DNA from: a bacterium | Lineage (GTDB): Bacteria; B130-G9 | Direction: 5' to 3' | Length of the DNA stretch: 50,236 bases | Assembly (NCBI GenBank): GCA_021160245.1 | Contig: JAGHCW010000116.1 | Span: 1-50,236, forward strand | Shown here: positions 1 through 36,565 of the stretch, in pieces | Layout: each line of letters starts with the position of its first letter | Position numbering within the stretch: the first letter of the stretch is position 1 | Translations under genes and position numbers: made by a program | Notes under the pieces: model-generated | Database searches by the model: none | What the model saw: only the letters and a program-made list of their open reading frames with translations | What the model was told of the DNA's origin: nothing

Positions 1-283
1 ATTTGCGCCTCTTCTCGAGATGACAGTCGCCTATCCTGAAGAGCTCTCCCAAAGCAAGGTGTGGCTGGTTATAGGCATCGATAAGACTGGAGATGTCATA
101 TCTGCTAGGCCGGCATTTTCTGAACTCGGGCCAAATCAGACAAAAACGCTGGCCTTTCTGGCCAAGAATTGGTATTTTGAACCGGCAGTTGATGATGAGG
201 ATGAGGCCTTCGCCTCGCTCTGCATCGTCCCGCTGGATTTGGCCAGCTTGTGTGAGATCGATGGAGGACAGCTGCCGGAATGA
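1..283 (+). CDS. C-terminal part of a TonB-like domain protein (5' truncated)
   Basis: The frame is open from the window edge, so the true start lies upstream; the ATG at 20 is probably internal. About 93 residues are visible. The segment VWLVIGIDKTGDVISAR, then a helix-like stretch, then NWYFEPAVDDED and a closing strand SLCIVPLDL, follows the TonB C-terminal domain plan (strand with V.V.IDK.G.V, helix, W.FEPA, final strand with V.V). In TonB proteins this domain contacts outer-membrane receptors; many unrelated envelope proteins carry the same fold. Nothing N-terminal can be judged. It ends 44 bases before purC on the same strand. Domain assignment is by pattern and moderately sure; the specific function is unknown. 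Confidence 0.55.
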   Translation, partial: FAPLLEMTVAYPEELSQSKVWLVIGIDKTGDVISARPAFSELGPNQTKTLAFLAKNWYFEPAVDDEDEAFASLCIVPLDLASLCEIDGGQLPE

Positions 284-327
284 GAATACGAACGTGAGTA
301 TGGGTTGAACGGGCATAAGGAGCGCAG

Positions 328-1236
328 ATGATGTCAATAGAAAGTGCCGTAACTAAAGTCGACAACGTAGGCGAGCTTGAGCTGTTCGCAAGCGGTAAGG
401 TTCGTGAGACGTTCCGCTTCACAAGCAACGTGCTCCTGATGGTCTCAACGGACAGGATCTCGGCGTTCGACTATGTGCTTCCCACCGGGATACCTGGCAA
501 GGGCAAGGTACTAAATGGACTTTCGAAGTTCTTTTTTCGGGAATCAAAGGACGTTTGCCCCAACCATTTCATCTCGACCCGCCTGGGGGACTTCATCGAG
601 CTAGAAGAGGATATGCTGGAACTGCTTGAAGGCAGAGCCATGCTGGTTGAGGAGATGAAGCCGATACCATTTGAGTGCATCGTCCGGGGTCATCTGTGCG
701 GCTCGGCTTGGCGCGAGTATCAGGCATCCGGCAAAGTCGGTGACATAACTCTACCCCAAGGGCTGGAGTTTGGGGACAGCTTGAAAACGCCACTTTTTAC
801 CCCAACTACTAAGGCGGAAACGGGGCACGACCGGCCTGTGACACAAGAGGATGTTGTGGCGGCCATCGGTAAGAAGGACGCGGATTATATCCACAAAATG
901 TCGATTGAGCTCTTCGATCTTGGCCACAGGACAGCTTATGACAAAGGAATCGCCGTGCTAGATACCAAGTTCGAATTCGGCTACAATAGGCGGGGTGAAA
1001 TATGTGTCATGGACGAGTTTATGACGCCGGATTCGTCCAGATTCTGGCTCAAGTCAGAGTACCGTAACGGGCAGAGAAACAATTTCTATGACAAAGAATA
1101 CATCCGCTCCTACTTGAACGACAGCGGTTGGGATAAGGAGCCGCCCGCGCCGAATCTGCCGGATGAAGTAGTCGCTGAGATGGCGAGGCGCTATCGCGTT
1201 GTTTATGAGAGCATCACGGAGCATTCGCTGGCCTAG
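328..1236 (+). CDS. purC: Phosphoribosylaminoimidazole-succinocarboxamide synthase (SAICAR synthetase)
   Basis: Cytosolic enzyme of de novo purine synthesis that joins aspartate to CAIR using ATP. It is the long, about 300-residue form. Visible family marks are GKVRETFRF near the start, the STDRISAFDYVLPTGIPGKG block, the signature IVRGHLCGSAWREY, and LDTKFEFGY followed by MDEFMTPDSSRFW near the C-terminus. Two ATG codons in tandem (328 and 331) follow AAGGAG at 317-322; the second gives the better spacing (8 bases), so the protein may start one residue later. No other purine gene is in the window. The next gene, birA, begins 26 bases downstream on the same strand, so co-transcription is likely. 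Confidence 0.95.
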   Translation: MMSIESAVTKVDNVGELELFASGKVRETFRFTSNVLLMVSTDRISAFDYVLPTGIPGKGKVLNGLSKFFFRESKDVCPNHFISTRLGDFIELEEDMLELLEGRAMLVEEMKPIPFECIVRGHLCGSAWREYQASGKVGDITLPQGLEFGDSLKTPLFTPTTKAETGHDRPVTQEDVVAAIGKKDADYIHKMSIELFDLGHRTAYDKGIAVLDTKFEFGYNRRGEICVMDEFMTPDSSRFWLKSEYRNGQRNNFYDKEYIRSYLNDSGWDKEPPAPNLPDEVVAEMARRYRVVYESITEHSLA

Positions 1237-2821: not shown

Positions 2822-2951
2822 TGTGTAGGGAGCTCCTGCAGAATGTTCATCTATGTCGAGGCTGCCTCGTAGGTCGTAATTGCTGTTTTGCAGAACGGGG
2901 CTGACTCCGCCCGCTCATATATTTGGGCAGACTCAAGGCGTGCCCAATTCC

Positions 2952-4544
2952 CTACGGTTCGCGTAGCTCATAGATGCGGATTGTCGGGCCCCCGCTGAGG
3001 AATGACGGTTGAAATTCCTTCAGTAAGTGGCCCCTGGTGAAGAGCTCGCGATAAAAGGCCACTTCTTTTGGATGCCGCTCAGGCTCCGGAAGAAATCTGT
3101 CGTAGATCGCGCTGCTGGCAACGAGGTATCGATAGCCCGCATCGTAATAGGCTCTGATACTCTTTCCATCTGGTAGCACGAAGCGATTGGAGACGACGAA
3201 GTCTGTCGCATTCAGCGGAATGGAGTAGCCCTCCTTCGCGATCTTGCTGCCAACAGGGAGATTGCGCAACATCCACTCTCTCGCAAGGACATGGGTGCCG
3301 GGGCTTGCCTCGGCGATCTCATAGAGGACTAGACTGTGAATCGGCTGAATCGAAAAGAGCAAAACCAGAGCCACCGTGATGCGCCGGGAATCAACGAGCC
3401 GGCGCTTGATTAGCCGAGGGAGTCGCATGGCGATTTCTGAAAGGGATTTCGCGGCGAATAGCATGAGAATGGGTAGAATCTGGAGCATCCATCGTGCCCA
3501 GTGTAGCGCGAGGAGACTGGTGCCGATGATGAAGATGCCCACGAACCCCAGCACGAGAATCCCGTCGAGCCGACCGCTCCGAATCACCAAGACCGCGCCC
3601 ATTAGCGCAAGGAGCGCAATCGGCCATGTGATTGAGGCGGGAATCGATTTCGCCAAATACCACCTCGCGTTACCGAGAAAGGAGAGACCGTCTGCTCCAG
3701 CATGTGTCGAACGTCCCTCATTGCCCATGTCTTGGATTGCCTTGGAGAAATCGAGGAAGAAAAATGGCGTGGAGAGCACAAAAGCCAACACGACCGCAAG
3801 CAACCCCGCGATGATCGCCGGCCAAACGGGCCGTTCATCGTGTTCTGAGCGCTGACGATAGATTATGTAAAGGTCAACGGCCAGGAGAATCGGAATGAGC
3901 GCGGCCATGAAGTACCTCGTTGCGATTGCGAGGCCAATCGAGAGTCCTGCAAGTGTGTGGTTTCTCGGCGTTGGCTTATCAAGAATCTTGAGGCAGAGCC
4001 AGATGCTGAGCAGGCCAAAGAACGTCGCCGGGGTATCCGTTCGAACTACTTGGGCGTGTGCCACGATAAGTGGCGGCAGCACAAAGAACCAAGCCCCGAT
4101 GAGCGCAACGTTGTCCGAGAAGAGCCGCCGGCCAATGAGAAAGACCAACGGCACGCTGAAGACGCCATATAGAATCGTGAGCAGCCGGCCGAGCAAATAG
4201 AACTCGCTCTGGTTATCGTAGAAGACAGCGGTCAGGCTCCCATCGGGCCGCAACAGCCGGCCATCGTGCTCAATCGCGTGCCAGAAATCGAAGATGAGGA
4301 CGAGGGGATATATGACCGTGGAGCCCGGGTTGCCGAACCAACGGGGATTCAAATCGCCAGATGCGGCTATTCTGATCGCTCGCTTGACATATATCTGTTC
4401 ATCGCCCTCGTGGAGGTATGGCAAATCCTTTTGGAATCCGGCCAAGAACACCCCTGCCGAGAATCCGACTATCGCCAAGAGCACCCAGACAGATTTGGAT
4501 GAATTATGGGCGTCCGGACAACCTGGCATTCCTAAGCTATTCAA
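2952..4544 (-). CDS. Membrane glycosyltransferase, family 39 (PMT/ArnT-like)
   Basis: Predicted polytopic inner-membrane protein with roughly ten hydrophobic segments, starting with SVWVLLAIVGFSAGVFLAGF. Right after this first helix comes an acidic loop HEGDEQIYVKRA, followed by NPRWFGNPGSTVIYPL; this is the usual layout of the catalytic loop in GT39/PMT_2 enzymes, which move sugars from polyprenyl-phosphate donors onto lipids or proteins at the outer face of the membrane. The C-terminal 130 residues are soluble (HVLAREWMLRNLPVGSKI...). Donor and acceptor cannot be told. It lies 21 bases downstream of the radical SAM gene on the same strand and is probably the last gene of that run. A second GT39 gene is at 34305. 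Confidence 0.8.
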   Translation of the reverse strand: MNSLGMPGCPDAHNSSKSVWVLLAIVGFSAGVFLAGFQKDLPYLHEGDEQIYVKRAIRIAASGDLNPRWFGNPGSTVIYPLVLIFDFWHAIEHDGRLLRPDGSLTAVFYDNQSEFYLLGRLLTILYGVFSVPLVFLIGRRLFSDNVALIGAWFFVLPPLIVAHAQVVRTDTPATFFGLLSIWLCLKILDKPTPRNHTLAGLSIGLAIATRYFMAALIPILLAVDLYIIYRQRSEHDERPVWPAIIAGLLAVVLAFVLSTPFFFLDFSKAIQDMGNEGRSTHAGADGLSFLGNARWYLAKSIPASITWPIALLALMGAVLVIRSGRLDGILVLGFVGIFIIGTSLLALHWARWMLQILPILMLFAAKSLSEIAMRLPRLIKRRLVDSRRITVALVLLFSIQPIHSLVLYEIAEASPGTHVLAREWMLRNLPVGSKIAKEGYSIPLNATDFVVSNRFVLPDGKSIRAYYDAGYRYLVASSAIYDRFLPEPERHPKEVAFYRELFTRGHLLKEFQPSFLSGGPTIRIYELREP

Positions 4545-4565
4545 GGCTTGATCCCATCCTCATCG

Positions 4566-5933
4566 TCATGTCACAGGCGTGAGAGTAAGCTCCTCCTGCT
4601 TCTTTCCGGCCAATTCTCTTGACCATCGCCTATAGTCACAAAGCGTGAAATCCTTCCTGGAATCTGCGTTTGCCCCCATCGCCAGCTCGCTAACGCCACA
4701 AGCAGAATCACGGCATGAAAGGCAGGCCCCATCGCATGATGCGGCCGGCATGAATCTCGGGCGCCTCGTGCCGGAGATGTCTGTGTATTCCCCGGACCCG
4801 CCGGAGAAATCACGTACGTAAACGGGAATGTCGATGCCCTCGCAGTTCTTGCAGCCGGCCATAAACTCCGCGTTCAGGCCACGCGATGAGACCTTCTTCA
4901 TTTTGCCGGAAGCCGTTTTGACCGAAGACATATCATTGCATTTTTCAAACTCCATGCAGAGCGCGAACGAGAGCTCGTTTTCGATGCAGAGGTTGCGCAG
5001 AAAGGAGAAGAGCTCCCGACGATACTCGATATTCGCGTGAAGCGTGCCATTCATCCTCTCCGTGAAGAGCTCCTCGTATGGCGTTTTGGGATTTTCATTG
5101 ATCGAGTAGAAGAGATTGAACATCTGCTTCGCGGACGTAACCGAGAGATCAACGCAGCTTGCAATGATGTGGTCCGCCCCGCAGAGCTTGGCGCGCCGAA
5201 TGAGCTGCTTCAGCTCCTGCCTGTCGTCAGTTATGAATGGGAGAATCGGGTCGATGCGGCATACCGTGTGTATCTTGTCGCGATACTCGGACGGCCAGGA
5301 CGATATCCGCCTGAGGTTGTAGAAAAGCTCATCTGTCGTCGCGCCGTGCCCGGGGGATAGTTGCTTTCGGATGCTCTCATTAACGGTAGTTATCGATACT
5401 TGCGCAAACGAGTGAGGATTCTGCGCGAGTTGTCTTATGACAGTATCCGGAACGATGCCCTTTGTAACAACCTCAATCGGCACGCCTCGCTCAGTGAACG
5501 CCTCGACTATTTTTTGAGACAATCTGTAGCGGTCCTCTACGGGCTGGAAGGGGTCGGTTACGGGCGATAGGTAGCCGGTTGATGCGAAGTCAATGGCATC
5601 GAGCTGACGTTTGACGTTTAAGTCCATGTCCCCAAAGACTGTAACCACTCGCCTTTGCCGAAAGAGTCGGAAGTAGCCCCAATCCATCCTGTTCGCATAG
5701 CAGTAAAGGCAGCTGAATTCGCAGCCGTTATAGGGATTGATAAGCATTCGCTCCCCGGTGCACTCGCGTTTTCCGGGCCACCAGCCGTGAAGCTGCTTTG
5801 TGGACGAGACAACGATATGAGGTGTTGGATAGTCAATGACCCGAAATCGCCGAGTTTTTCTGCCGACGTTCCAGGTGATGGTTCCCGCATGGCAACCAGC
5901 ATTCTGCTCATGAGTCGCGAGCATCTGCATCAT
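4566..5933 (-). CDS. Radical SAM protein, spore photoproduct lyase/SplB-like
   Basis: The radical SAM cluster motif is C71-x3-C75-x2-C78 within NPYNGCEFSCLYCYANRM, typical of the SplB-like proteins found widely in non-spore-formers. Downstream are DPFQPVEDRYRLS and a TIM-barrel-like stretch (IEVVTKG, QVSITTVNE, RIDPILPFI). The last 100 residues add a cysteine-rich block: C-x2-C in CKNCEG, then CDGACLSCRDSACG, which could hold one or more auxiliary Fe-S clusters. Such a C-terminal block is not part of classical spore photoproduct lyase, so DNA repair is only one possibility. It starts 3 bases after the CCA-adding gene, strongly suggesting one transcript with it. Substrate is unknown. Confidence 0.8.
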   Translation of the reverse strand: MMQMLATHEQNAGCHAGTITWNVGRKTRRFRVIDYPTPHIVVSSTKQLHGWWPGKRECTGERMLINPYNGCEFSCLYCYANRMDWGYFRLFRQRRVVTVFGDMDLNVKRQLDAIDFASTGYLSPVTDPFQPVEDRYRLSQKIVEAFTERGVPIEVVTKGIVPDTVIRQLAQNPHSFAQVSITTVNESIRKQLSPGHGATTDELFYNLRRISSWPSEYRDKIHTVCRIDPILPFITDDRQELKQLIRRAKLCGADHIIASCVDLSVTSAKQMFNLFYSINENPKTPYEELFTERMNGTLHANIEYRRELFSFLRNLCIENELSFALCMEFEKCNDMSSVKTASGKMKKVSSRGLNAEFMAGCKNCEGIDIPVYVRDFSGGSGEYTDISGTRRPRFMPAASCDGACLSCRDSACGVSELAMGANADSRKDFTLCDYRRWSRELAGKKQEELTLTPVT

Positions 5934-11948: not shown

Positions 11949-12027
11949 TGCTTGAATGGTTTTTAGATGACGCACTTGACCGGCAACGGGTCTTCTGCGA
12001 CTATTGCTTGTGGGAGGAACAGCGACG

Positions 12028-12381
12028 ATGATTGAGACTGCGGCCTTGAGAAGGCAGCGCAAAAGCGCAATCGACGAGGAGATCAAGAGGATGCTCGCGA
12101 CGCTCATAAAAATGCGGTCCGTTACAAAGGTCATCCTGTTCGGCTCGGCCGCTAAAGAGGAGACCGGGATAGCAAGTGACATAGATATTATTGTTGTGAT
12201 GAAGACCGAGAAGAGGTTCATCGACCGTCTTGATGAGCTTTACACAGCCGTCCAACCGGAGATCGGCACGGACATTCTGGCATATACACCGGATGAGTTT
12301 GAGGCTCTTGCATCAGAGTCCGCGTTTGTGAAGCACGCCGTCCGAGAGGGAAAGGTGATCTATGATCGATGCGCGCCATGA
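12028..12381 (+). CDS. Minimal nucleotidyltransferase (MNT) of an MNT-HEPN pair
   Basis: Small pol-beta-superfamily nucleotidyltransferase. The signature GS-x10-DxD is exact in the stretch from LFGSAAKEE to SDIDIIVV, with the two aspartates as metal ligands. In characterised MNT-HEPN toxin-antitoxin modules the MNT protein is the antitoxin, inactivating the HEPN protein by AMP transfer. The ATG at 12028 follows GGGAGG at about 12012-12017; a TTG further upstream (12004) is less likely. Its stop lies 20 bases inside the HEPN gene, so the pair is translationally coupled. Gene order is antitoxin first. Around 117 residues is usual. Module activity is inferred from family and gene order. Confidence 0.85.
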   Translation: MIETAALRRQRKSAIDEEIKRMLATLIKMRSVTKVILFGSAAKEETGIASDIDIIVVMKTEKRFIDRLDELYTAVQPEIGTDILAYTPDEFEALASESAFVKHAVREGKVIYDRCAP

Positions 12382-12772
12382 GGCAGGTCGCTGGCTGAGC
12401 CAGGCTCAACGAGACCTGGATGATGCTCGTTTCAATCTTGAGGGAACGAGAAACAATGTCGCCTGCTTTATGGCCCAACAGGCTGCTGAGAAGAGCCTGA
12501 AGGCCTTTCTATATGGGCAGGGAGAGGAGATTGTCTGGGGTCATTCTGCGTCCGATCTCTGCAAGCGCTGTTCAGCCTTTGACCCTGAGTTCCAGGATAT
12601 TCTCGCCTCGGCATCGGCGCTCGATAAGTACTATATCCCCACGCGCTACCCAAATGGACTGCCCGGAGGCATTCCGTCCGACGTATTCGATGCACACGAC
12701 GCCTCACGCGCTCTCTCGTTGGCAGATGAGGTAGTTGGATTCGTCAGCCGCAAGATGGCGGCAGAAAAATAG
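12362..12772 (+). CDS. HEPN domain protein (partner of MNT)
   Basis: Helical HEPN-domain protein of 136 residues. The family segment ACFMAQQAAEKSLKAFL sits at about residues 37-53, and YIPTRYPNGLPGG near 96-108 matches the tail of the PF05168-type HEPN proteins. I do not find the R-x4-6-H ribonuclease motif that marks toxic HEPN RNases, so it may bind RNA or nucleotides, or act only in complex with MNT. The start ATG overlaps the MNT stop by 20 bases. It converges on glyQ with only 12 bases between the two stop codons. Whether it is a toxin cannot be read from sequence. Confidence 0.85.
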   Translation: MIDARHEAGRWLSQAQRDLDDARFNLEGTRNNVACFMAQQAAEKSLKAFLYGQGEEIVWGHSASDLCKRCSAFDPEFQDILASASALDKYYIPTRYPNGLPGGIPSDVFDAHDASRALSLADEVVGFVSRKMAAEK

Positions 12773-28398: not shown

Positions 28399-29382
28399 AT
28401 GCAGAATACAGAAGTTACTACTTTCGGCCCCCTAATCGCACGTGACCGAGGGATGGTTGACGCATTGGGATTGGCTCGCAAGGCTTCAAGGGAGAATGTC
28501 CCAGTGCTTCTAGAGGGAGAGAGCGGGACGGGTAAACAGGCGTTAGCATTTGCTATTCACACAGAAAGCTCTCTCAAACGCTCACAGTTCTGTGTTATAG
28601 GATGTTCCGCTGATGCCCCGACAGCCTTGAAATCTATGTTGGTTGGGTCCAAGCCCATTCTTGTAGTGCGATACGGGCAGAAAACTGGGAGTGAGCTCAG
28701 GCTAGAGAGGGCTGGCACATTATATATTGATGAGATTAGGCTTATGAGCCCGACGGTTCAGTTTGGGCTATTGAGTCTTCTGGACGAGCTTCGGTCTTCC
28801 CCGTGTGGGATTCAGAGGGAAACGAAACCACATCTACGTGTGATTACGTCAACCACCGGAGACATCCAGAAAGCCTGCAAAGAGGGTCTTGTCAGGTCCG
28901 ACCTATTCTATGCTATGAGTGTAATACATATCACGTTGCTGCCTCTCCGAGAGAGGCTGGATGATCTTGTTCCGCTGGCCAAGCATTTTCTACAAGTGGC
29001 TATGCAGAAGCATAGCAAGAGCCATAGGACGTTTTCGTCCAAATGCCTCACCGAGATGGCCAAATATGGTTGGCCGGGGAATCTGGATGAACTGAAGAGC
29101 AGAATAGAAAGGGCTGTTATTCTGTCATCGGCAATGGCGATAAGCCACCGAGAGCTGGGTTTACCATCCTTGACCCGCGAAATTGGGATCAAGCTCGCTG
29201 ATAGAAAGCTTGAGCTGGAAAAGCAGAATCTCCACACCGCTCTGGAGGCAGCCGGGGGCTACGTTGCACGCGCGGCGAGGATTCTTGGTCTATCGAGGCA
29301 GAACTGCTATAGACTTGTGAAAAAACACAACATGTCTCTTGACGATTTCCGAAACAAGAGGATAGCTGATCTTGACAATTGA
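28399..29382 (+). CDS. Sigma-54-activator-like AAA+/Fis protein lacking GAFTGA
   Basis: 327 residues: an AAA+ domain then a Fis-type helix-turn-helix (ALEAAGGYVARAARILGLSRQNCYRLVKK). Walker A is GESGTGKQ at residues 40-47 and Walker B GTLYIDEI at 106-113; the arginine-finger region is RSDLFYAMSVIHITLLPLRER and KYGWPGNLDELKSRIERAVIL follows. The GAFTGA loop that contacts sigma-54 is absent: after Walker A the chain reads MLVGSKPILVVRYGQKTGSEL where the loop should be, as in activators that no longer use sigma-54 (TyrR-like). No receiver or sensor domain precedes it. Start ATG has GAGGAGC 5 bases upstream. It may be a sigma-70-type regulator or a degenerate ATPase. Confidence 0.82.
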   Translation: MQNTEVTTFGPLIARDRGMVDALGLARKASRENVPVLLEGESGTGKQALAFAIHTESSLKRSQFCVIGCSADAPTALKSMLVGSKPILVVRYGQKTGSELRLERAGTLYIDEIRLMSPTVQFGLLSLLDELRSSPCGIQRETKPHLRVITSTTGDIQKACKEGLVRSDLFYAMSVIHITLLPLRERLDDLVPLAKHFLQVAMQKHSKSHRTFSSKCLTEMAKYGWPGNLDELKSRIERAVILSSAMAISHRELGLPSLTREIGIKLADRKLELEKQNLHTALEAAGGYVARAARILGLSRQNCYRLVKKHNMSLDDFRNKRIADLDN

Positions 29383-29729: not shown

Positions 29730-30116
29730 GTGACTATAGATGAGCATCTAGATCTGAAGATTATCGAAAAAGCCTGCCCGGAAATCGATGAGGCGCTTTT
29801 TGGGGATAGGGACTCGGTTTGCATTCTTGAGAAGGAATACAGACCGTTCTCCACAGGGAAAGTGCGCGAGATCGCTATCGCTGAGGCCAATCTCAAGTTC
29901 ATTCAGCAGAATCCTGAGAAGATCAACCAGAGAACTAAGGAGCCCAGTGACGGCGCCCTGGCTGCTCTTGCGGGGCATCACGTGATATGGATACTTATAG
30001 GCGATAGGTACACCGGCGCGGGTGTTCTGGACGGTTGCTATACTCCCACTCTTCATCGTGATCTTAAGCTGTTGATCAGAAAGGTGATCCGTAACCGCCA
30101 CCCCCAGGAGGAGTGA
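29730..30116 (+). CDS. Uncharacterised 128-residue protein, first gene of the PPDK-like operon
   Basis: No recognised family. The sequence is soluble and mixed alpha/beta: helix-like KIIEKACPEIDEALFG, then STGKVREIAIAEANLKFIQQNPEKINQR, then two hydrophobic strand-like parts (HHVIWILIGDRYTGAGVL) and a basic C-terminal helix (LKLLIRKVIRNRHP). The start is a GTG with no ribosome site; no in-frame ATG lies near. The stop TGA overlaps the GTG of the PPDK-like gene by four bases, so the two are co-translated. Its tight link to the other two genes indicates a shared role; the role itself is unknown. Confidence 0.65.
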   Translation: MTIDEHLDLKIIEKACPEIDEALFGDRDSVCILEKEYRPFSTGKVREIAIAEANLKFIQQNPEKINQRTKEPSDGALAALAGHHVIWILIGDRYTGAGVLDGCYTPTLHRDLKLLIRKVIRNRHPQEE

Positions 30117-32863
30117 GCGTGCCGGAGATCGTTCGCTTCTTTCAGGGAATGCCTAACGGTCTCTGGGGCGCAGATGCAGCGGCGAGAGGGGAGCATCTGG
30201 GCCTTAAGGGCGCGGGCCTCGTCCGGCTTGCTGAGCTTGGTCTTCCGACCCCTGATGGATTCGTCATACCAATTGACGCTATTGAGCGACTTAGGAGTCT
30301 GAATATCGGGCTTATTTCTGAGATCAAGCTCAACCAGCGCCTCCCCACGGAGCTCATCGACGACTTGGTTATTCCGGAGGGCTTCTTTGAAGCGGTCAAG
30401 GAGAACATTGCATGGCTTGAGGAGAGAAATGCTTGTCGGTTTGGGGAAGTAAATCGCCCCCTTCTCGTCTCCGTTAGGTCGGGCGGAACAGTCTCTCTGC
30501 CCGGTCTCATGGCGACTGTCTGCAATGTGGGTCTGACTAGACAGATGATCGATTCCATTGAGCCGACAGACACGAGGCGTGGGTTTCTATTGGACTGCTT
30601 TCGGCGGTTTATAGAGAGCTTTGGAGGCGCGGCGCGCGGAATTAAGACCCAGTGCTTCAGAGACATCCTGAGAGAATATAAGTCGTCGGGGCATAGTAAT
30701 ATCTCCTGGCCTATGAATGAGTATCTTTCGCTTTGCCCCGTCCCGAGCGACCCATGGAGTGCTCTTAGGTTCTCCATTTTTGCCGTTATGCTCTCTTGCG
30801 AGACGACAGAGGTTGCTAGTTTTGCTCGAACCATTTACATCAGGGAGCGAGTCAGGACGGCTGTAACGGTCCAGAAGATGGTTTTTGGAAACCTCGATGC
30901 TGCATCGGGTAGTGGCGTCGTCTTCAGCCGCAATCCATCCACTGGTGAGCCATCGATGAAACTGGGTGGGAGTCGTGTGTTTGGACAGATTATACTTCAA
31001 TCGCAGGGCGTGGACGTCGTCCAGGACCTCGATGACAACAGCGCTATCCAGGACTTGCAGCAGAGTCAGCCTTCAGTTTGTGAGAAGCTGGCCGAGATTG
31101 CCAGGACACTCGAAAAGGACTCGGGCCACGTCCAGGACATAGAGTTCACGCTGGAGTCTGGCAATCTTCATATTTTGCAGGCAAGGCCCGCTAGGATGGC
31201 TCCGGCCGCGTTTTTGAGGGCTCAGCTTGATATGGTCGCGGAGGGCATAACATCGGAGGCTGATGTCATAAAGCGAACTGACCCGAGGCAGCTGGAGCGC
31301 GTTCTATCCTGCACGGTGACGTCAAGTCAGACCGGTTCCCCAAGACTGATTGGCAGTGGAAGCCCGCTGGTGCCCGGCTATGCAACGGGCCGGCTATGTT
31401 TCGACATTCGGAAGGTGAGGCAGTTCAAATCACAAAACGAGCCGGTCATCTTCTGTTGCGAGCGGCTTCTATTATCTCATATTCACGTTTTGGAGGTCGT
31501 TGACGGCATTATATCCTCGCAGCGAAACGTCCTATCACACGCAACGCTCAACGCGCGCTATCTCGGTCGCCCGAGCGTTGTGAAGGCCTCCGTTCGCATA
31601 GACTCGCGAGCGGGGACGTTGCGCTACGGTGGTGATGATATTCCTTCCGGGATACTCAAGGAGGGGGATACTGTCTCAATCGATGCGCATCGTGGGCATA
31701 TATACGAGGACCAAATGGAGATACGGGTCTCCGGAATCGATGACCCAATCGCCCAACGTTTCTGCTCTCTAGTCACCAGCTACGGTGGAATAAAGGTCTA
31801 TGCGCAGGCGGAGGACCACGAGACATACGCCGTCGCGAAGCGGCTCGGAGCAGACGGCGTGGCCAACTTCCGGTCTGACGTCTTGTTCTTCAAGAAGTTT
31901 ATGAACGTCGCTCTTTGCGACTATGTCCTGAGTGTGGGCACAGCGAACGAACCATCGGCCCGGGAGCGGCTGCTTCTGGCGCTCAAGCGGGACTTTGCGG
32001 AGATCTTCCGCACAATGGATGAGAACTACATCGCGATCCGCCTGATCAAGCATACGATGTATGAGTACTTCCCGAAGGAAAGGTCCGATCTCGTTGGTCT
32101 TGCCGAGGATATCTTGAGAGCGAGGCGCAGTGATGATCCAAGAGATGCCGGAAAGAAACTGAGCAGCAGCGAGGTGGAGAAGATGGTGAGGGTTATCAGA
32201 AGCAAGAAACGACTTCAGGAGGACTATAACCCAATTATAGGAAGGCGAGGGGTCCGGCTTGCGACGACGCTGCCTGAGATTTACGAGATCGAGATCAAAG
32301 CAATCCTTCTGGCAATGCTCCAATCGAGGGAAGAGGGGAAAGAGCTCGCAGTCGATATGCTGATCCCTTATGTATGTGTGGTCGGTGAGTTTTTGTTCGT
32401 CAAAGGGCTCGTGGACAGGATCGCCATCGAATGCGGAGCGGCCGACCTTGAGTATGGCACGGCGCCGGTTATCGAGATGAGCGGCATACTTTTTGAGATG
32501 GACAAGATTGCAGCGCACACGGGCTTGGTTGTAATCAGGTCGGACAAGCTCACCACGTCAACGCACCATATAGCGAGAGAGGACGCGGAGGAGTTTCTCC
32601 CAGAATACGTAGATAGAGGATGGTTCTACGGTGATCCATTCAGAGTGATTCAGGAAAGCACTGAAAGAATCGTCAGACAGGCTGTCCAGGCAGCGAAACA
32701 GAGCAACCCGGCCATTAGGATAATGGTCTCAGGAACACATTGTGCCAACGAGTATAGCCTCAGAAGATTACTCGACCTCGGAATAAATGAGGTCTCCTGC
32801 CCACCAATAATGGTGCCCGTCGCCAAACTCATCGCCGCCAAGATCGAGGAGACTGGGCATTGA
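30113..32863 (+). CDS. Divergent pyruvate phosphate dikinase-like protein
   Basis: 916 residues covering the whole PPDK plan. ATP-grasp: GLKGAGLVRLAELGLPTPDGFVI and PLLVSVRSGGTVSLPGLMATVCN. Phospho-His domain: SQRNVLSHATLNARYLGRPSVV, keeping His476; the regulatory Thr two residues before is Leu. PEP/pyruvate barrel: FRSDVLFF, NPIIGRRGVRLATTLPEIYEIE (both substrate arginines), VIEM (metal Glu) and SDKL (metal Asp). But the C-terminal ICGEHGG motif, whose Cys is the general acid for pyruvate, reads VSGTHCANE: Ser873 where Cys is expected, with Thr875 for Glu; a Cys lies at 877. Phosphoryl transfer to ATP/His may survive while pyruvate chemistry is altered. Starts at GTG; overlaps both neighbours by four bases. 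Confidence 0.85.
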   Translation: MSVPEIVRFFQGMPNGLWGADAAARGEHLGLKGAGLVRLAELGLPTPDGFVIPIDAIERLRSLNIGLISEIKLNQRLPTELIDDLVIPEGFFEAVKENIAWLEERNACRFGEVNRPLLVSVRSGGTVSLPGLMATVCNVGLTRQMIDSIEPTDTRRGFLLDCFRRFIESFGGAARGIKTQCFRDILREYKSSGHSNISWPMNEYLSLCPVPSDPWSALRFSIFAVMLSCETTEVASFARTIYIRERVRTAVTVQKMVFGNLDAASGSGVVFSRNPSTGEPSMKLGGSRVFGQIILQSQGVDVVQDLDDNSAIQDLQQSQPSVCEKLAEIARTLEKDSGHVQDIEFTLESGNLHILQARPARMAPAAFLRAQLDMVAEGITSEADVIKRTDPRQLERVLSCTVTSSQTGSPRLIGSGSPLVPGYATGRLCFDIRKVRQFKSQNEPVIFCCERLLLSHIHVLEVVDGIISSQRNVLSHATLNARYLGRPSVVKASVRIDSRAGTLRYGGDDIPSGILKEGDTVSIDAHRGHIYEDQMEIRVSGIDDPIAQRFCSLVTSYGGIKVYAQAEDHETYAVAKRLGADGVANFRSDVLFFKKFMNVALCDYVLSVGTANEPSARERLLLALKRDFAEIFRTMDENYIAIRLIKHTMYEYFPKERSDLVGLAEDILRARRSDDPRDAGKKLSSSEVEKMVRVIRSKKRLQEDYNPIIGRRGVRLATTLPEIYEIEIKAILLAMLQSREEGKELAVDMLIPYVCVVGEFLFVKGLVDRIAIECGAADLEYGTAPVIEMSGILFEMDKIAAHTGLVVIRSDKLTTSTHHIAREDAEEFLPEYVDRGWFYGDPFRVIQESTERIVRQAVQAAKQSNPAIRIMVSGTHCANEYSLRRLLDLGINEVSCPPIMVPVAKLIAAKIEETGH

Positions 32864-34248
32864 GACCATCGGGTGACGAGACTATCAGGCTATCGGACCT
32901 AGTAGAGCAGTTCGATCAATTCATGGAGGCCAACAAGAGGGCCGTCAGAAGTCTAGGTGAGCTCGGCAAGATGTTTGCGAAGATATCACTCGTGACGGTG
33001 CGGCGTAATGAGCCATTCAATGCCGAGAACATTCGACATCGCTGTCGAAAAAAGCGGCACATCGAAGCCATCTGCCACAGCCTTTCCAGGCGCCTCCTAG
33101 GTTGCATGGCCGCCATGGATGCTCTGGTCGAATCATACCATCTGCTCAGCCGTGCAAACAAGGCGGAAATCGACGAAGCTCTTGAGCGAATAAAGAACCG
33201 TTTTCTCTCTCACTTTTGGTTTCTACAGCGAATTTTGCTCTTCAACCTGAGCAGCGATGTTACCTATTTTTCACAACACAAGAGGGCTCTAGGCCTGCTC
33301 ATCGACATAAGGCCGAGCATCATGAGATCGATACTCAGCATGAAGGACCAGGGGCTGGTTCCAAAACTGAGAAGTCTCAACGAACTTGTTCGATACATCC
33401 ACCAGCGCGGTGAGAACGCATTCTTCATCCGCGCGCGACAGATGGGCGCCTCAGCCCAATTTGCGTTGGGGAGTGGGAACTGTCTCAACCTGGTTGATCT
33501 GGACGTTCAGCTCTCTTCCGGCGGAGCGGATGACGGAACCGACCGGACGCTAAGTGATCTGCTCAGGGAGCCTGTGATGGCTGGTCTCCTGCAACCCTAC
33601 AGAGAGGGAATAAAGGGCGAGGGAGCAGAGACGCTCAATGTCGTCAAATTCAAAGAGACGATCGATACGCAGCTGGAGCTGGGCCTTCATAAGGCGAGGC
33701 TCAGGAGCAGAATACCGACAGTACCCGGCGCGACCCCAAGCTCCATATCGCTCTCCTACTACGAGCCTTTCCAGACACTTGTCTCCCAAACACTCGGCCA
33801 GCGTGTCCGATACCTGTCCGGGATACTTTCCCGATTGCTTTTCTCTGTCGATACAGACTTCGTAACTTATCTCAACGCGCAATTCGATGGCGCGCCGGGG
33901 AAATGCCGCGCAGCGCTTGGCGAGCTCGTTCGCGCCATGATCTCGCTAAAAGACCTCGATGAATTGCTCTCCCAGCCGGGCAAAACAGAGCACGCAATTT
34001 CGCTTTTTGCCGAGGGCGTAAGCAACATACATGGATACTTCAACGCCGTCCGGTGCCTCGATCTGGCGCTCAATGGCGAAGTGTCGCCCGAGTCCCTCTC
34101 AATGATCCTTGGGCAAGAAGAACTCAGCCCCAAGGAGATGAGTATTCTCCTGCACGGCGATTTCGCCAAGTTGATCGGGCGTCCGGGTGTTGATGCCACA
34201 ATTGCAGAGACCATCCGGTCTGTCTTAACCAGCCAGATGAGCGGTTGA
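32860..34248 (+). CDS. Uncharacterised helical protein, third gene of the PPDK-like operon
   Basis: 462 residues, no family recognised. Nearly all predicted helical, with heptad-like leucine-rich stretches (LVEQFDQFMEANKRAVRSL, YLSGILSRLLFSVDTDFVTYL, AISLFAEGVSNIHGYFNAV) and a basic patch (RHRCRKKRHIEAICHSLSRRL). No signal peptide or membrane helix. The TTG start overlaps the TGA of the PPDK-like gene (TTGA). Likely a cytosolic partner or substrate-binding subunit of the PPDK-like protein, as PPDK regulation in other organisms uses separate proteins; the known PPDK regulator (DUF299) looks quite different, so this is inference. The next gene on the strand, GT39, begins 57 bases later and may be separate. 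Confidence 0.7.
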   Translation: MRPSGDETIRLSDLVEQFDQFMEANKRAVRSLGELGKMFAKISLVTVRRNEPFNAENIRHRCRKKRHIEAICHSLSRRLLGCMAAMDALVESYHLLSRANKAEIDEALERIKNRFLSHFWFLQRILLFNLSSDVTYFSQHKRALGLLIDIRPSIMRSILSMKDQGLVPKLRSLNELVRYIHQRGENAFFIRARQMGASAQFALGSGNCLNLVDLDVQLSSGGADDGTDRTLSDLLREPVMAGLLQPYREGIKGEGAETLNVVKFKETIDTQLELGLHKARLRSRIPTVPGATPSSISLSYYEPFQTLVSQTLGQRVRYLSGILSRLLFSVDTDFVTYLNAQFDGAPGKCRAALGELVRAMISLKDLDELLSQPGKTEHAISLFAEGVSNIHGYFNAVRCLDLALNGEVSPESLSMILGQEELSPKEMSILLHGDFAKLIGRPGVDATIAETIRSVLTSQMSG

Positions 34249-35723: not shown

Positions 35724-35766
35724 TAGGGGCGTCCTGCATGCGCCCTTGAATCCCACGCCTCCTCCT

Positions 35767-35835
35767 CATCGCCCGACTTCAGTCGAGGCGATGCAAAGGG
35801 CTATTATGATCCTAACCCCCGAATTCATTCGGGGG
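35767..35835. repeat. REP-like pair of hairpins with identical TTCA loops
   Basis: First hairpin (35767-35793): CATCGCC plus CGAC, loop TTCA, GTCG, one bulged A, GGCGATG. Second (35816-35835): CCCCCGAA, loop TTCA, TTCGGGGG. They are 22 bases apart and share the same four-base loop. No T tract follows, so they are poor terminators; the layout is like paired REP (BIME) elements. Confidence 0.55.
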
Positions 35836-35894: not shown

Positions 35895-36131
35895 TCAGCT
35901 GCCAACCGCGCCGACTTGCTCGACCGCGAGATTCTCAAGCTGCATTAGCGGCCGGCTCCCGACGAATTCCAGGTGCTCCCGCGCGGAGAGTATCTCAATC
36001 CCCACAATCTCGCCCTTCGGATCGCAGTCGATCGCGATGTCCTCGCTGAGTCGCATCGTCGTTACCTCATGCTTGCCCTCCATGAAGCGAACGTAGAGCG
36101 CATCGACCTTTGAATCATAGGCTATTTTCAT
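35895..36131 (-). CDS. DUF2283 domain protein
   Basis: About 78 residues. IAYDSKVDALYVRF, then SEDIAIDCDPKGEIVGIEILSA, is the DUF2283 pattern (short beta-rich protein). AAAAAGGG 6 bases upstream favours ATG 36131 over 36137. It follows the DUF4258 gene on the same strand with about 12 bases between. DUF4258/DUF2283 pairs recur in many genomes and are often treated as toxin-antitoxin-like; which partner is toxic is not known to me. Function unknown. Confidence 0.85.
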   Translation of the reverse strand: MKIAYDSKVDALYVRFMEGKHEVTTMRLSEDIAIDCDPKGEIVGIEILSAREHLEFVGSRPLMQLENLAVEQVGAVGS

Positions 36132-36143
36132 CGGCATCCCTTT

Positions 36144-36425
36144 TTAGAAATAGAAAGCATAAACCGTAACCACAATCATATCCGTCTCTTCTTTAACAAC
36201 GATCGGGACAACTTGCTTGATCGCATAGTGCTTACCACCCCAACACCTGTTGAACTTGAAGTTTCGCCTGAATGACAGACGCCCTCTCTTCGCCGGTATT
36301 CTCTCGCCCATGCGAATCGCATCCTCCACCTCGTCCCTACTTACGCCTCGTTCTTGCATCTGCCTCAGAGCGTGATCGGAGAGGATAATCGTCTGCTCAA
36401 CCATGACAGTGGAATTGTCGTCCAT
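36144..36425 (-). CDS. DUF4258 domain protein
   Basis: About 93 residues. LSDHALRQMQERGVSRDEVEDAIRMGERI (H, R and E residues of a BECR-like small fold), then RNFKFNRCWGGKHYAIKQVVPIVVKEETDMIVVTVY, match DUF4258. The start is uncertain: ATG 36425 or 36404 are possible, and none has a clear ribosome site; the frame opens at 36470. Usually such proteins are ribonuclease-like candidates; catalysis is not shown. Paired with the DUF2283 gene directly downstream. Confidence 0.8.
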   Translation of the reverse strand: MDDNSTVMVEQTIILSDHALRQMQERGVSRDEVEDAIRMGERIPAKRGRLSFRRNFKFNRCWGGKHYAIKQVVPIVVKEETDMIVVTVYAFYF

Positions 36426-36565
36426 TTTGTTTACCAAGGAGCATAGGTCTTCTGAGCAGAAATATACCACGAAGAGGCAGATTGTCTAAGCAGCCGGTTT
36501 TGAGGATTAGAAGGGACACGGGAAGGCTTGCTGTATGAATCTGATTCTCGGGGTGTGTCCAGTTA

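Follow-up and report, generated by a model that had tools for sequence, protein, structure and literature searches.

We describe a conserved unit of two genes, one for a divergent homologue of pyruvate phosphate dikinase (PPDK) and one for a helical protein of no known family, in a bacterial family represented by metagenome-derived genomes. The PPDK-like protein keeps the residues expected for taking up phosphate from ATP and has exchanged those of the pyruvate/PEP site. It could be a dikinase-type phosphohistidine enzyme that serves a non-pyruvate acceptor, with the helical protein as its adaptor, acceptor or substrate-binding partner, a reading that we regard as evenly poised.

Gene layout and conservation

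The window, that is, the whole stretch of DNA analysed here, is a single contig of 50,236 nucleotides from a 3.43-Mb genome assembled in 244 contigs. A sequence-only reading of it had proposed three overlapping genes on the plus strand (Table 1). The open reading frames stand: own-frame codon-usage scores were 0.20, 0.15 and 0.13 for genes 1, 2 and 3 and shifted frames scored negative, so that all three are coding-like. The TTGA overlap between the PPDK-like and helical genes is also solid, since a Shine-Dalgarno-like GAGGAG precedes the TTG by 8 nt and the sister genomes G001 and G003 share this join; G002 has an adjacent ATG instead. The proposed GTGA overlap between the first two genes is doubtful. 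An AGGAGG at positions 30106-30111 is separated by 1 nt from the GTG at 30113 and by 7 nt from the in-frame GTG that follows at 30119, and this join is less certain because the AGGAGG suits the second GTG better; a start at 30119 would leave a 2-nt gap after the 128-residue gene.

Table 1. Positions of the genes, motifs and domains discussed in the text (nucleotide positions in the window; residues of the PPDK-like protein)
Feature	Position	Strand	Basis or remark
Gene for 128-aa protein	29730-30116	+	ORF call; coding-like codon usage
Divergent PPDK-like gene, 916 aa	30113-32863	+	Pfam and PDB matches, AF2 model, orthologues in 4/4 family genomes
Helical-protein gene, 462 aa, TTG start within the PPDK-like stop	32860-34248	+	Orthologues in 3 other genomes
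H476 codon, equivalent to catalytic phospho-histidine H455	31538-31540	+	Canonical alignment; in SSQRNVLSHA
Rebuilt PEP-site motif RSDKLTT (R809-T815), canonical GTNDLTQ	32537-32557	+	Strictly conserved in four orthologues
Rebuilt catalytic-cysteine motif MVSGTHCA, canonical GICGEHGG	32723-32746	+	C831 position S; A in three sisters
ATP-grasp domain	residues ~1-360		
Swivel domain, including H476	residues ~410-535		
Rebuilt PEP/pyruvate-type TIM barrel	residues ~545-912		

We surveyed 386 genomes, comprising the four metagenome-derived genomes of the window's family (the window genome, G000, and its sisters G001 to G003, in three genera) and 382 others drawn from about 250 further families, most of which contributed one to three genomes. 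Another broad search, set up around a different genome, largely returned genomes already sampled. The PPDK-like and helical genes were adjacent, with their order unchanged, in all four family genomes, and the sister orthologues were 61-64% and, over the full length, 59-60% identical to the respective window proteins. Neither orthologue occurred in the 382 genomes outside the family; the divergent PPDK-like orthologues scored 1825-1932 bits, and no other PPDK in the 386 genomes exceeded 459. The sequence-only reading had looked to synteny across distant genomes, and the survey placed the pair in this one family. As far as sampled, with four genomes here and shallow coverage elsewhere, the pair is confined to one lineage.

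Conservation thus extends to two of the three genes, and the 128-residue gene is outside the unit. No homologue of the 128-residue protein was detected in the 386 genomes, the three sisters included, or in plasmids or viral contigs, and nothing resembling its gene lies upstream of the pair in the sisters. Weak matches elsewhere (E 0.007 or worse) were taken as chance. Both flanking proteins had been called unrecognised, and neither matched a known family in Pfam, NCBIfam, PADLOC or PDB searches. Both had also been proposed as partners of the PPDK-like protein, which is supported for the helical protein, always adjacent, and not for the 128-residue protein, found in one genome only. An obligate three-gene system would suit the first frame, which is closely spaced and coding-like in its codon usage; the lack of a homologue in the sisters or other genomes searched, or upstream of the pair, makes it extremely improbable. 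The 128-residue gene is possibly co-transcribed with the pair. A sigma-54 interaction (AAA+) protein with a Fis-type HTH and no receiver domain found is encoded at 28399-29382 (+), its gene ending 347 bp upstream of the 128-residue gene; no such gene preceded the pair in the sister loci examined.

In the sisters the pair is flanked by a YdjM-family gene (G001 and G002; the G003 contig ends there) and by uppP-mreB-mreC. The window locus has the sigma-54 activator on one side and a PMT_2-family glycosyltransferase on the other, and the uppP homologue and best YdjM-gene match of the window genome lie on contigs C171 and C20. Since the flanking genes differ and the pair is intact, the PPDK-like and helical genes stayed together through rearrangement. 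Values of dN/dS were 0.07-0.18 for both genes where dS was computable, several dS being saturated, compared with 0.06-0.09 for canonical PPDK; within that limit the ratios point clearly to purifying selection on the pair, although its two genes evolve faster than canonical PPDK.

Some other features of the region were recorded. One copy of a dispersed repeat, about 72 bp long, occupies positions 35764-35834; the repeat has 32 matches in the window genome, 25 in G001, 13 in G003 and 2 in G002, and in G001 one copy immediately precedes the PPDK-like gene (C108:47299-47370). Elsewhere, several copies have a piece of about 35 bp in opposite orientation some 80-140 bp away, resembling a MITE/REP-type arrangement; the window copy has no inverted partner beside it. 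Adjacent DUF2283 and DUF4258 genes at 35895-36470 (-) are reminiscent of toxin-antitoxin-like modules. Two overlapping small genes at 12004-12772 (+) look by eye like an MNT nucleotidyltransferase/HEPN pair, on the basis of an FGSAA motif and AQRDLDDARFN...QQAAEKSLKAFL.

Relation to canonical PPDK

The middle gene had been read as a full-length PPDK homologue, and the searches bear this out. Its product carries the Pfam PPDK_N, mobile and PEP-binding domains, and residues 27-910 match C. symbiosum PPDK (1kbl) with an E value of 8e-98. The AF2 model, whose alignment included canonical PPDKs that help it, reached a pLDDT of 82 and superposed on the PPDK crystal structure 2r82 with Z 40.9 and rmsd 4.4 over 833 residues. 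The TIGR01828 equivalog cut-off was not reached (499.5 bits vs 843.45).

Alongside a second, canonical PPDK, each of the four family genomes encodes an ordinary PTS enzyme I, and central metabolism therefore needs no divergent copy. The canonical PPDKs of the family are 82-90% identical to one another; the divergent copy is 28-31% identical to them. In the ML tree, the four divergent proteins formed one clade (100/100) apart from the family's own PPDKs. The branch that divides this clade from all canonical PPDKs, taken across the midpoint root, exceeds 7 substitutions per site, a length to be taken as only rough. Recent duplication of a local PPDK was rejected on account of this very long, fully supported branch to all canonical PPDKs. 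We read the PPDK-like protein as an ancient, strongly diverged PPDK paralogue. The DUF299 regulator of PPDK was absent from all four genomes, and because of that its absence beside the PPDK-like gene is uninformative on this gene. The canonical PPDK of the window genome (L015, positions 2930-5563 of G000:C19) follows a 724-aa ORF (671-2845) that by eye resembles the beta subunit of glycyl-tRNA synthetase.

Active-site residues kept and replaced

We compared the four divergent orthologues with 25-26 canonical PPDKs, using C. symbiosum numbering; literature searches on PPDK-like paralogues and on the active-site residues returned nothing usable. The ATP-grasp catalytic residues K22, R92, D321, E323, Q335 and R337 are retained in all four, as are the catalytic histidine H455 (H476 in the window protein) and R561, R617, R665 and E745. 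Ten other near-invariant canonical residues are replaced in all four: T453 by L, D620 by K, R748 by G, G766 by R, T767 by S, N768 by D, D769 by K, Q772 by T, C831 by S or A and E833 by T. The window counterparts are D811 for N768, K812 for D769, T815 for Q772, G791 for R748 and S873 (A in the sisters) for C831. T453 is the regulatory threonine. We take C831 of the C. symbiosum enzyme to be the acid/base for the enolate N768 to bind PEP, and D769 with E745 to hold the magnesium. The joint loss of C831, N768 and D769 strongly argues against ordinary PEP formation.

That the protein is nevertheless a working, pyruvate-specific PPDK isoenzyme with an unusual active site is very unlikely. The full-length PPDK fold of the AF2 model and the retention of R561, R617, E745 and H455 would suit such an enzyme; C831, N768, D769, Q772 and R748, near-invariant in canonical PPDKs (25-26 of 26), are replaced in all four orthologues, and a canonical PPDK is already present in all four genomes.

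The exchanged positions do not look like decay. Near-invariant canonical columns are retained to 57% in the ATP domain, 30% in the swivel domain and 38% in the barrel; within the divergent clade, conservation is 66-70% in the barrel and swivel domain and 51-54% in the ATP domain. As the barrel is more conserved within the clade than the ATP domain, the altered barrel is constrained. Its strictly conserved new set comprises R809, S810, D811, K812, T815, T875 and C877, and the motif RSDKLTTSTHHI is invariant in the four orthologues except at its flanks.

The histidine loop is altered as well. A T/SxxGGxxxH swivel loop is conserved across the PEP-utilising superfamily (PMC12167813); here GG has become R/K-N, and the loop reads S-S-Q-R/K-N-V/M-L-S-H in all four. 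Phosphorylation of H476 by the PPDK-like protein is not assured, because the superfamily GG is lost from this loop, and the change leaves room for a regulatory pseudoenzyme. The protein would then be a catalytically dead pseudo-PPDK, acting as a nucleotide-binding regulator of another enzyme (for example by pairing with canonical PPDK) or as an ATP/AMP sensor with the helical protein as effector. We consider this somewhat unlikely: changes do affect both the pyruvate site and the glycine loop of the swivel domain, and each genome offers a canonical PPDK to pair with and no DUF299 regulator, but a purely structural role would need neither the tested ATP-grasp residues nor the catalytic histidine, which four diverged orthologues have retained, and the barrel holds its new, strictly conserved residue set.

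The helical partner and a candidate phosphate relay

The 462-residue partner is a soluble protein in which the histidines H60, H140, H181, H277 and H391 are invariant. It had been described as helical, and AF2, run on the four available sequences, predicted it to be mostly so, with low confidence (pLDDT 44). Designed TPR proteins were its sole PDB profile match, over 28 residues with no stretch significant by itself, and were set aside; weak matches of its profile in other genomes, which were short, had E values of 0.01-0.09 and in some cases contained stops, were likewise put down to chance. Viral-contig scans with both flanking proteins gave no match. A role in anti-phage defence was rejected, there being no PADLOC match.

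A physical partnership between the helical and PPDK-like proteins is suggested by their linkage. The helical protein could instead be a mere operon neighbour with an unrelated job, which would be in keeping with a pair known from four genomes and a fold predicted at low confidence. We find this quite improbable, given that the two genes are always adjacent with overlap or near-overlap coupling, that the helical protein was never found without the PPDK-like gene in the 386 genomes, and that the pair was kept together when its surroundings changed.

For the dikinase-type enzyme favoured here, we propose the following mechanism. The two genes would form a translationally coupled two-protein unit of this lineage. 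Through the ATP-grasp domain, H476 in the swivel domain would most likely receive a phosphoryl group from ATP. The C-terminal barrel has most likely abandoned the pyruvate/PEP half-reaction, because the catalytic cysteine, the PEP-binding asparagine, the metal-ligand aspartate and other pocket residues are lost. With the pyruvate pocket rebuilt, the phosphoryl group would reach a non-pyruvate acceptor: the swivel domain may carry it to a new acceptor in the rebuilt barrel, or to the helical protein, which would act as an adaptor or accept it directly. The redirected phosphotransfer of the sequence-only reading is compatible with these active-site changes.

Known systems share parts of this design. 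With PPDK itself (TIGR01828, 1kbl) the protein has in common the three-domain order and fold, the ATP-grasp residues and the catalytic histidine; it differs in its identity of about 30%, in the replaced pyruvate/PEP-site residues, swivel GG and regulatory threonine, and in the added helical partner. PTS enzyme I, which passes phosphate to a protein partner, has a swivel histidine and a related PEP-binding barrel, but is without an ATP-grasp domain and retains the GTNDL and GVCGEM motifs that the PPDK-like protein has lost. Rifampin phosphotransferase, HpeHI and PpsAB are dikinases that have gained new acceptors (PMC4844700, PMC12167813), and by analogy with them a phosphate relay to a new acceptor is the most likely reading of the window protein. 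In rifampin phosphotransferase, an ATP-grasp domain and a swivel histidine domain serve a new acceptor, as we infer here, through a different acceptor domain (PMC4844700). Superposed on it, the AF2 model matches chiefly in the ATP-grasp domain. HpeHI, CreHI and PpsAB are PPDK/PEP-synthase-related phosphohistidine enzymes of more than one gene with a non-pyruvate acceptor, again as proposed here; their ATP-grasp sits on a subunit of its own, and their acceptor domain is of another type than the PEP-type TIM barrel (PMC12167813). Unlike HpeHI and PpsAB, the window protein has all three PPDK domains in one 916-aa chain, and its second gene encodes an unrelated helical protein.

Where members of the PPDK/PEP-synthase family are known to have moved to new substrates (rifampin, phenols), the pyruvate barrel is lacking. 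In contrast, here the whole PPDK is retained and the barrel itself is rewired, and a dedicated protein outside any known family is added. The most far-reaching form of the proposal is a new ATP-driven phosphohistidine relay, in which a full-length PPDK would have become a protein-phosphotransfer or new-substrate dikinase with the helical family as its obligate acceptor or adaptor; we hold this form to be unlikely. The rewired PPDK with its partner would, if confirmed, be a new reuse of a phosphohistidine machine of central metabolism, in a lineage known solely from metagenomes.
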